DNA of 57,648 nucleotides from an alpha proteobacterium HIMB59 (GTDB lineage: Bacteria; Pseudomonadota; Alphaproteobacteria; HIMB59). The stretch spans positions 1 to 57,648 of the forward strand of contig SGZV01000007.1 in NCBI GenBank assembly GCA_004321805.1, given 5' to 3'. Each line of letters begins with the position of its first letter. Positions within the stretch are counted from its first letter, which is position 1. A program made the position numbers and the translations under genes. Under the pieces are notes generated by a model. That model worked only from the letters and a program-made list of their open reading frames with translations, was not told the DNA's origin and searched no databases. This document shows positions 23,275 to 30,618 of the stretch, piece by piece.

Positions 23275-23601
23275 TTAAAATGGCATTTTCATACCAGGAG
23301 GTAAAGGAAGACCTCCGGTTATTTTTTTCATCTCTTCAGCAGACATTTCTTCAACTTTCTCTTTAGCCTGATTCAATGCTGCTTTAATTAAATCTTCTAA
23401 CACTTCTTTTTCATCAGCCGAAAGTAAAGAGGGATCGATATTAATAGCTTGGACAATCTGCTTACCATTCATAATAACTTTTACCATGCCACCGCCAGAC
23501 TCCGCTTCAACAGTTTTATTTGCCAGTTCTTGTTGCATTTCTTGCATTTTGGTCTGCATTTCTTGGACTTTTTTCATCATTCCGCCCATATTACCCATCA
23601 T
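23275..23601 (-). CDS. ybaB: YbaB/EbfC-family nucleoid-associated protein
   Basis: Small DNA-binding homodimer of the YbaB/EbfC family. From the ATG at 23601 it has 108 residues: a methionine-rich helix (GMMKKVQEMQTKMQEMQQEL) then the family sheet KVIMNGKQIVQAINIDPSLL and a C-terminal GGLPLPPGMKMPF tail. The open frame extends to GTG at 23610 and an ATG at 23607, but the AGAGG ribosome-binding site at 23611-23615 is best spaced (9 bases) for 23601. It is coupled to the end of dnaX. Confidence 0.9.
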   Translation of the reverse strand: MMGNMGGMMKKVQEMQTKMQEMQQELANKTVEAESGGGMVKVIMNGKQIVQAINIDPSLLSADEKEVLEDLIKAALNQAKEKVEEMSAEEMKKITGGLPLPPGMKMPF

Positions 23602-25195
23602 TTTCATCACCTCTTTCTAATTCTTCAATATCTATAATCTTAGCATTAGGAAATTTAGCAAGTACTTTCTTAAAATCATCCGTTTGCATTTCTATATCAA
23701 TAAGCTCTTTTTTATAAAGTTTTTTAATTGTATCTAAATTATCGATTTTCTTTTTAACTACAATATCAACTTTAAAATCATCTTTAAGATTAGCTTTTAA
23801 CTCTTCACTACCAGAAAAATTCTCTTTAAGGACATGAATGATTAATCTCTTCTCACTCTCTGAAAATTTTATAATTTCACAATTTTCAATAATAATTCCT
23901 GCCATTAATGGAGAAAAGTTTTTTCCATAAAATTGAAAAAAATCTTGATGTATATTAATTTTTTCTTTTAAAGACATTGATATCTCATCTTCGACTTTAT
24001 TTTGTACTGCTTGATCTAAATTTGGAGAGGGATTTGTTTGTTTTGGATTTATTTTAGACTTTTTTTTTTCTTCAGATCCATCCGAGCTTTCATCATTAAT
24101 CAAAAAAGCGCTACGCAATAAAATCATTTCCAGTGTGGAGTGAGGATGTGGTGAAATTTTTATTTCATCGTAACCTTTCATAAGACTTTGCCAAAAAATA
24201 TTTAATTTTCCATGGTCATATTGAAGAATAAAATTTGCGAAACTCTTATCTTCATCAGTCAAAAATTCATCATTTAATAAATTTTGATTAATTTTTAATT
24301 TGCATGACCAATTAATTATACTCATTAAATCTTCTATAATCTTAGAAGTCTCAGAGCCACGTTCATACATATCATTTAACATGCTCATTAGATCGCTTAA
24401 ATTATTTTCTAAAATATTTTTTGATAACGTGTACAAATCACCCATTTTAGCGAAACCTAACATGTTAATAATTTCTGCGGCTTTTATTTCATTACCTGAT
24501 TTAAATATATTCGCTTGATCTAAAATGCTTAAAGAATCTCTAACTGATCCATCACTTGCTTTGATAATCAAATTTAAAGCTTCTTTTTCTAAAGAAATAT
24601 CCTCTTTGAGTGCAATTTTTTCTAAAAAATTAGCAAGTTCTTTTTTCTCTATTCTTCTTAAATCAAATCTTTGACATCTTGATAAAATAGTAACAGGAAC
24701 TTTAGAAATTTCAGTAGTTGCGAAAATGAACTTTGAATGAGGAGGAGGTTCTTCTAATGTCTTTAATAAAGCATTGAATGCACTTTTTGAAAGCATGTGA
24801 ACTTCATCAATTATGTAAACCTTGTATTTACCTAAAACAGGATTGTATTTTACGTTTTCTATTATCTCTCTAGCGTTTTCAACGCTTGTGTTAGAGGCTG
24901 CATCAATTTCAATTACATCAGGATGTCTATCTTCTGTAATAGCTAAGGCTTGATCACATTTTTGCAAGTCAGGTTTATTTTCCCCGTCGAAAACTGTGCA
25001 ATTAAGCATTTTTGCAACAATTCTAGCGGTTGTGGTTTTGCCAACGCCCCTGATGCCAGTAAAGATATAAGCGTTAGGAATTTTATTTTGCTCAATAGAC
25101 TTTTGAATAGTTTCAACCAAATAATCTTGGCCAATCAAGTCGCTGAAGTCTTTAGGTCTGTATTTTAACGCAAGGATATTTGATTGGTGTTTCAT
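23591..25195 (-). CDS. dnaX: DNA polymerase III subunit gamma/tau
   Basis: Clamp-loader ATPase, 534 residues in the full (tau-like) form. Walker A GIRGVGKTT is at 47-55, Walker B/DEVH in VYIIDEVHML, and the SRC sensor in VTILSRCQRFDL. The zinc module is degenerate: only Cys66 and Cys80 remain where four are common, as I recall for other alphaproteobacteria. After domain III (about residue 375) comes a Ser/Lys/Pro-rich linker encoded by a run of ten A, then a C-terminal tau domain. See the slippery-site feature. Confidence 0.95.
   Translation of the reverse strand: MKHQSNILALKYRPKDFSDLIGQDYLVETIQKSIEQNKIPNAYIFTGIRGVGKTTTARIVAKMLNCTVFDGENKPDLQKCDQALAITEDRHPDVIEIDAASNTSVENAREIIENVKYNPVLGKYKVYIIDEVHMLSKSAFNALLKTLEEPPPHSKFIFATTEISKVPVTILSRCQRFDLRRIEKKELANFLEKIALKEDISLEKEALNLIIKASDGSVRDSLSILDQANIFKSGNEIKAAEIINMLGFAKMGDLYTLSKNILENNLSDLMSMLNDMYERGSETSKIIEDLMSIINWSCKLKINQNLLNDEFLTDEDKSFANFILQYDHGKLNIFWQSLMKGYDEIKISPHPHSTLEMILLRSAFLINDESSDGSEEKKKSKINPKQTNPSPNLDQAVQNKVEDEISMSLKEKINIHQDFFQFYGKNFSPLMAGIIIENCEIIKFSESEKRLIIHVLKENFSGSEELKANLKDDFKVDIVVKKKIDNLDTIKKLYKKELIDIEMQTDDFKKVLAKFPNAKIIDIEELERGDENDG
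24054..24070 (-). other. A10 slippery run in dnaX with immediate -1 stop
   Basis: On the coding strand codons 376-379 read GAA AAA AAA AAG (ten A then G, 24069-24059). A -1 slip on AAA AAG would give one extra codon GTC and then TAA at 24056-24054, for a product of about 380 residues comprising domains I-III, the equivalent of E. coli gamma. No obvious Shine-Dalgarno stimulator upstream or hairpin downstream is visible. The position and the stop are read directly; use of the site is inferred. Confidence 0.5.
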
Positions 25196-25204
25196 TATAA
25201 TTAA

Positions 25205-25294
25205 GGAGAATTACACGACCCAACATTTCATGTTACGGCTGCTTTCTTTCGAACCTGACCGGATTAGCATCAAAGGCTGCCCATGTAATTCTCG
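25205..25294 (-). ncRNA. ffs: Signal recognition particle RNA (4.5S-type)
   Basis: The minus strand contains GGTCAGGTTCGAAAGAAAGCAGC, closely matching the universal SRP domain IV core (GTCAGGTCCGGAAGGAAGCAGC). The ends pair perfectly over ten bases (GAGAATTACA at 25293-25284 with TGTAATTCTC at 25215-25206), giving one long hairpin of about 90 nt, the bacterial 4.5S form. It lies between pheA and dnaX, a location common for ffs. Confidence 0.95.
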
Positions 25295-29571: not shown

Positions 29572-30618
29572 CTATTTCTTTATTAAATTAATTTGTACTA
29601 ATTCATTTTGTGAGCCAATACGAATTTTAGGACCCCATGTAGAAACACCTGAGCTTACATAAAGACTCTTATTATTTTCTTGATAAAGTCCATAAATTTC
29701 AGGAAATTGTATTTTTACCAGAAAGTTGAAGGGGAAAATTTGTCCATTATGCGTATGGCCAGAGAGCATTAAATCAACTTCATTTTTTACAGTTTTCCAC
29801 AATGATGGCTGATGCACAGCAAGAAGATTAAATTTATTATTTTTTGACAAATTACCATAAATATTTTTTTTTTCATTTATGGATAAATTATCATTGATAC
29901 CAATTAAATTAATTCCGTGATAGCTCACTGCCTCATTATTTAATATTTGAATGTTACATTCTTGGAACTTATCAAGATGTTTTTGGAAGTTTTGAATGTA
30001 ATATTCATGGTTGCCTGTAACAAAATAAATAGGACATTTAATTTTTTTCAGAGAAAATAAGTCATTGATTTTAAAGGAACTGCTATCAATTAAATCTCCC
30101 CCTATCAGTAAAAATTTGGGTTTTAATTGATTTACTAGTGGAACTATTTTATCTAGCCTTTTTGGAGAGTTTGAACCAATGTGAACATCGCTAATAAAAA
30201 TAAATGATAAATTTTCATCAATGGTGTTACTTTGAATTTCCAAATTTTTTATTTTAATTTTTCTGGCATTCCAGTGACCATAAAACAAAAGAGGTAGTTG
30301 AAAGATAAAAAATATAATGATCATAATATTATTGGGTATTGAAAATAATATCTCGAAAAAAAGAATTGGAATTATTACGAATAAAGAGATGCTACCTACT
30401 CCAACTCCTTCATAAATAATAAATTTTATAATTTTATTACTATTCTTTGTTCGAAAATAAAATAAACAAATAAAAAAGATAATTAGCGTTGAGGTGATTA
30501 GTTCTAAAGGCGTTCCTGGATGGCCAAGCCATCTAGCTAATATTTCAAAAGGAAAAATAAAAACCACATAGACAAAAATTAAAAGTATAAATAAAGGGAT
30601 TATAGACTTAAGACTCAT
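29572..30618 (-). CDS. Membrane-associated metallophosphoesterase (YaeI-like)
   Basis: A calcineurin-like phosphoesterase with about three to four N-terminal membrane segments (SLKSIIPLFILLIFVYVVF and others, to about residue 130) and a C-terminal catalytic domain. Metal motifs: ISDVHIG, GGDLID, GNHEYY, SGHTHNGQIFPF. The ATG at 30618 (348 residues) is chosen because the upstream in-frame extension overlaps the DMT gene by nearly 60 bases. YaeI-type enzymes cleave lipid pyrophosphates; the substrate here is unknown. Confidence 0.82.
   Translation of the reverse strand: MSLKSIIPLFILLIFVYVVFIFPFEILARWLGHPGTPLELITSTLIIFFICLFYFRTKNSNKIIKFIIYEGVGVGSISLFVIIPILFFEILFSIPNNIMIIIFFIFQLPLLFYGHWNARKIKIKNLEIQSNTIDENLSFIFISDVHIGSNSPKRLDKIVPLVNQLKPKFLLIGGDLIDSSSFKINDLFSLKKIKCPIYFVTGNHEYYIQNFQKHLDKFQECNIQILNNEAVSYHGINLIGINDNLSINEKKNIYGNLSKNNKFNLLAVHQPSLWKTVKNEVDLMLSGHTHNGQIFPFNFLVKIQFPEIYGLYQENNKSLYVSSGVSTWGPKIRIGSQNELVQINLIKK

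Follow-up and report, generated by a model that had tools for sequence, protein, structure and literature searches.

Short forms of the clamp-loader subunit DnaX are known to arise by more than one route. In Escherichia coli, gamma is produced by −1 ribosomal frameshifting on an A_AAA_AAG heptamer, an A6 tract with a Shine–Dalgarno (SD)-like element and a stem-loop as stimulators, and a stop after one −1 codon leaves a protein of domains I–III. In Thermus thermophilus, transcriptional slippage on A9 within a single tau open reading frame (ORF), with near stops in both other frames, yields a short gamma from the shifted transcripts (PMC1088944). The two-ORF dnaX genes of Chlorobi and others carry A7–A10 at the gamma/tau junction, and it is tau that needs the shift (PMC3711429). 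Caulobacter crescentus obtains gamma through ClpXP processing of DnaX (PMC5422525, PMC5009743). In the open-access literature we found no paper on alphaproteobacterial dnaX frameshifting or on dnaX slippage in Pelagibacter.

We analysed a stretch of 57,648 nucleotides (the window; contig SGZV01000007.1 of assembly GCA_004321805.1) from an alphaproteobacterium of the HIMB59 lineage, whose 1.07-Mb source genome is 80% complete and has a GC content of about 31%. Its dnaX gene lies on the reverse strand, starting with ATG at position 25195, and is followed downstream by ybaB and then recR. A bacterial small SRP RNA gene (25202–25294, reverse strand) is found directly upstream. The zero frame of dnaX is open through to residue 534 and its product, tau, has a mass of 61.0 kDa. 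Codons 376–381 read GAA AAA AAA AAG TCT AAA, which places T10 on the forward strand and, on the coding strand, A10 followed by G. Behind the run the −1 frame reads AAA GTC TAA, valine and a stop. The features are collected in Table 1.

Table 1. Features of the dnaX locus, in window coordinates
Feature	Position	Strand	Remarks
dnaX (tau, zero frame)	23591..25195	-	TIGR02397 417.9 bits (cut-off 250), Pfam, PDB gamma/tau match
C-terminal folded domain, tau only	23654..23971	-	residues ~409–514, helices and strands, mostly pLDDT 80–90 (predicted structure)
Conserved putative recoding element GAAAAAAAAAAG-TCT-AAA (18-mer)	24053..24070	-	43/43 genus genomes retain both run and −1 stop
A10 run, candidate slip site	24060..24069	-	codon 376 positions 2–3 through codon 379 position 2
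A_AAA_AAG heptamer	24059..24065	-	zero-frame phase as in E. coli dnaX; AAG in 42/43, AAA (A11) in 1
−1 frame TAA, second codon after run	24054..24056	-	TGA or TAA here in 43/43
Predicted gamma	24054..25195	-	residues 1–379 plus Val, 380 aa, 43.2 kDa, domains I–III; inferred product

A preliminary description of this DNA had placed ten A's and a G at the end of domain III and had foreseen that a −1 shift would give one codon, then TAA, and a product of about 380 residues equal to domains I–III. Both points are borne out. The Pfam match to domain III ends at residue 364 and the PDB gamma/tau match at residue 362. In the predicted structure of DnaX (mean pLDDT 77.2) the last helix of domain III spans residues 351–367, and residues 370–405 have pLDDT below 50 and no confident structure; the predicted gamma would terminate 13 residues past that helix. 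The −1 stop therefore sits in the linker, right behind the clamp-loader core.

Judged by its sequence features, dnaX of the HIMB59 clade belongs to the Thermus type. A sense A run of at least nine lies within a single tau ORF (A10 in 42 of 43 genomes of the genus, A11 in one), and stops are near in both other frames: in −1 after one codon in all 43, and in +1 within 2–8 codons of the run in the 31 genus genomes tabulated. It differs from Thermus dnaX in coming from an AT-rich alphaproteobacterium, in having the run right behind domain III, and in its fixed A10-G and strictly kept −1 stop. The in-phase heptamer together with the −1 stop, the E. coli arrangement, is present in 42 of 43 genomes, and a domains I–III gamma is predicted here as well; unlike E. 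coli dnaX, however, this locus has A10 rather than A6, no SD-like or stem-loop stimulator was found, and conservation extends past the heptamer. The earlier comparison of this site with the logic of both systems is thus supported. With the two-ORF genes of Chlorobi it shares poly-A at the gamma/tau junction, but tau is here the zero-frame product and no zero-frame stop directly follows the run in the window dnaX. With C. crescentus it shares a short DnaX in an alphaproteobacterium (here predicted), recoding probably taking the place of proteolysis.

Conservation of the run and stop within the genus

Long A runs are not rare in this genome. Of the 57 A/T runs of 10 or more in the source genome, 52 fall within ORFs of 90 aa or longer, and in 47 of these 52 it is the coding strand that has the A's (counts from pattern matches and extracted sequence stretches). 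Hence, the dnaX A10 is by itself not significant. Within the window A10 runs are rarer than expected, with 3 observed against 10.0 by dinucleotide shuffle.

It is conservation across relatives, and not the run alone, that takes the dnaX site beyond chance. A10-G (A11 once) with a −1 stop as the second codon is found in all 43 genus genomes that retain the dnaX site, comprising a first set of 33, whose dnaX genes are 63–80% identical to that of the window, and 10 further genomes. Of the first 33 genomes, 32 spell the run GAA AAA AAA AAG and the remaining one GAA AAA AAA AAA, with the −1 stop in second place throughout. The linker around it diverges, codon 375 encoding E, V, D, G, N or K. The codon after the run encodes S, P or L, yet ends in T without exception and is followed only by GAA or AAA; these are the very bases required for a TGA or TAA in the −1 frame. 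By chance, 12.7% of positions would have a −1 stop as their second codon, or 16.4% if only positions after Lys codons are counted. The dnaX site ranks first of 529 six-codon windows for third-base conservation. Loss of the run and stop in close relatives had been named beforehand as an observation that would refute the proposal, and the proposal withstands this check.

Of the 52 genus genomes, 41 contain the motif GAAAAAAAAAAGNCTRAA a single time each, and the reversed control pattern gave 0 matches. The other 11 genomes have a variant (A11 in G013, CTT in G015) or no complete dnaX match across the site. As a control, an A10 in a metallophosphatase-like ORF (29864–29873, reverse strand) is kept in only 2 of 30 orthologues. 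Chance from AT-richness, which the preliminary description had named as a competing explanation, is therefore ruled out by the third-base rank, the control run and the single copy in 41 genomes. One genus genome (G008, locus L020) has a dnaX match with one internal TAA, due either to an assembly error or to a broken gene.

The site in other alphaproteobacteria

In a sister family of the same order (f2) the run is absent at the dnaX site, so the device is not needed across the whole order. Some 30 codons farther along the gene, members of f2 (L035–L051) have A7–A9 runs, and in several of them a −1 stop (TCTTGA) follows. These runs are unconvincing as an equivalent site, since their length varies and one member has lost the run. 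In a class-wide sample, A9 or A10 recurs at query position 374–385 in several other families with GC contents from 29% to 60%. At the upper end of this range, Marinicaulis sp. (60% GC; L084) has A9 at the same dnaX position and a −1 stop after one codon.

The carriers differ in the frame of their stop. Outside the order of the HIMB59 genus we tallied 52 carriers, 15 with two ORFs, 20 with the stop in −1, 15 with it in +1 and 2 with neither; these are loci, many of them related, and not independent events. Among the 37 single-ORF carriers the immediate stop is thus in −1 in 20 and in +1 in 15, against a null of 25% for either frame. Sites ending in AAC are evenly divided (11 in −1, 11 in +1), whereas those ending in AAG are all −1 or two-ORF. 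In the order of G240 (L199–L228), A9 or A10 is found at dnaX position 377 in 21 of 30 loci, and even inside a family the near stop in another frame is sometimes in −1 and sometimes in +1. In family f6 (L229–L243), all 15 dnaX loci have a zero-frame stop 1–4 codons after A9 or A10, the two-ORF feature, and the −1 frame stays open for 64–186 codons past the run; by eye, this continuation resembles domain V in the longer loci shown. Family f6 has the reversed layout known from Chlorobi and others, in which tau would require a shift. In two loci labelled Pelagibacteraceae (L070 and L072), the zero frame of DnaX closes near residue 422 with a tail like DPKVKEIIDFFPGTEVEQIEEK, and the usual C-terminal domain of DnaX seems to be missing.

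A FastTree phylogeny built from 166 DnaX N-terminal regions implies 17 changes in the trait, of which well-supported branches force at least 12; an exact count is unsafe because many branches are long, and gains are indistinguishable from losses on the tree. It seems rather probable that an A9–A11 recoding site has been gained or lost repeatedly among alphaproteobacteria, each time at one point of dnaX, and that it serves in place of proteolysis of the Caulobacter type. The layout (−1, +1 or reversed) would then switch between and within families, with selection keeping the homopolymer and not the frame.

Possible routes to a short DnaX

We searched the surroundings of the run for stimulators of ribosomal frameshifting. 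Upstream, duplexes with the anti-SD in the genus mostly have energies of −0.4 to −1.0 kcal/mol and are not conserved. Downstream, the region +12 to +72 is hardly structured, with a mean minimum free energy of −3.0 kcal/mol and a mean z of −0.23 (n=33 genus sequences). No RNA structure was found on either side in the genus or in the other carrier groups, and an Rfam search at the dnaX site returned no frameshift element and no other RNA. The earlier remark that no stimulator is visible accordingly holds. The complete genome G029 of the same genus (one contig of 1,410,127 bases) has a single tRNA-Lys, with anticodon UUU, among all its 35 tRNA matches.

Our main reading, to which we give a probability of about 0.68, is that A10-G and the immediate −1 stop form a programmed recoding site, allowing a single dnaX gene to specify two clamp-loader subunits, mainly through RNA-polymerase slippage of the Thermus type and possibly with a ribosomal share. 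That recoding of either kind operates at the site we regard as highly probable. Polymerase slippage, which the preliminary description had already held to be the likelier route, is favoured by the pattern of conservation: invariance spans the full A10, including the bases of codons 376–377 outside the heptamer, and stop direction is mixed in other families, mixed direction at one site being a criterion for transcriptional realignment (PMC3711429). The near stops in both other frames and the lack of a stimulator are also in its favour. In E. coli magnesium-chelatase cassettes, shifting rises from 10% with A7 to 40% with A9 and 63% with A11 (PMC3711429). It counts against this reading that about 46 other ORFs of the source genome have a sense A10 or longer, so that a polymerase slipping heavily on all such runs would impose a high cost.

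The main alternative is programmed −1 ribosomal frameshifting at A_AAA_AAG, as in E. coli, with the long run merely adding tandem slippery positions and no polymerase slippage needed. The in-phase heptamer, the −1-only stop of the genus and its single tRNA-Lys(UUU) fit the ribosome as well, and the polymerase route is to that extent unproven. The ribosomal account also draws on the choice of AAG, found at the site in 42 of 43 genomes against 19% of Lys codons in these dnaX genes, and on the AAG-ended sites elsewhere, which among single-ORF carriers likewise have only −1 stops. It is weakened by the lack of any SD-like element or stem-loop, for heptamers without stimulators in E. coli shift at only 2.1–10 times a 0.055% background (PMC4066793). 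Moreover, the A's upstream of the heptamer are invariant too, L033 has A11-T in place of AAG, and the AAC-ended sites of other families differ in stop direction. We consider a mainly ribosomal shift possible but unlikely.

That there is no recoding at all, the run persisting in a Lys-rich linker of an AT-rich genome through chance or because the protein keeps an EKKK motif, is highly improbable. EKKK is indeed conserved at the protein level and 47 sense A10+ runs lie in the ORFs of this genome, but the constraint is synonymous and trans-frame, GAA AAA AAA AAG and xxT RAA being nearly invariant in the top-ranking window, and the control A10 is not conserved. Recurrence at the same site at up to 60% GC and the reversed two-ORF layout of f6 likewise speak against it. 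Scarcely credible as the sole source of gamma is ClpXP processing with an incidental A run; it is known from another alphaproteobacterium (PMC5422525), but leaves the conserved run and −1 stop unexplained, and it could coexist with recoding.

Under the favoured polymerase route, RNA polymerase would slip on the ten A's by realigning its nascent transcript, giving some dnaX mRNAs with extra or missing A's. Unaltered transcripts, and those changed by three, would yield the 534-aa tau. A net gain of one A, or loss of two, would bring translation to its end at the Val380-stop, whereas transcripts changed by −1 or +2 would stop within about 2–8 more codons, such that all shifted transcripts would encode a gamma consisting of domains I–III, with neither the linker nor the C-terminal domain. 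The ribosome may contribute too, by −1 slippage on A_AAA_AAG. Overall, dnaX in the HIMB59 clade very probably makes a long and a short protein through slippage at the run; that slippage, its level, and the production of and need for both proteins are what we infer from the sequences.

A gene call on the DNA alone reveals tau only. Natural variants for separating polymerase from ribosome slippage are available in sites with AAG or AAC ends, in sites with −1 or +1 stops and in the reversed two-ORF family f6, and the site-less sister family f2 lets one ask if gamma is needed at all. The sole published alphaproteobacterial route to gamma that we found in the open-access literature is ClpXP cleavage in Caulobacter; this ocean clade appears instead to encode gamma by slippage within an essential replication gene.
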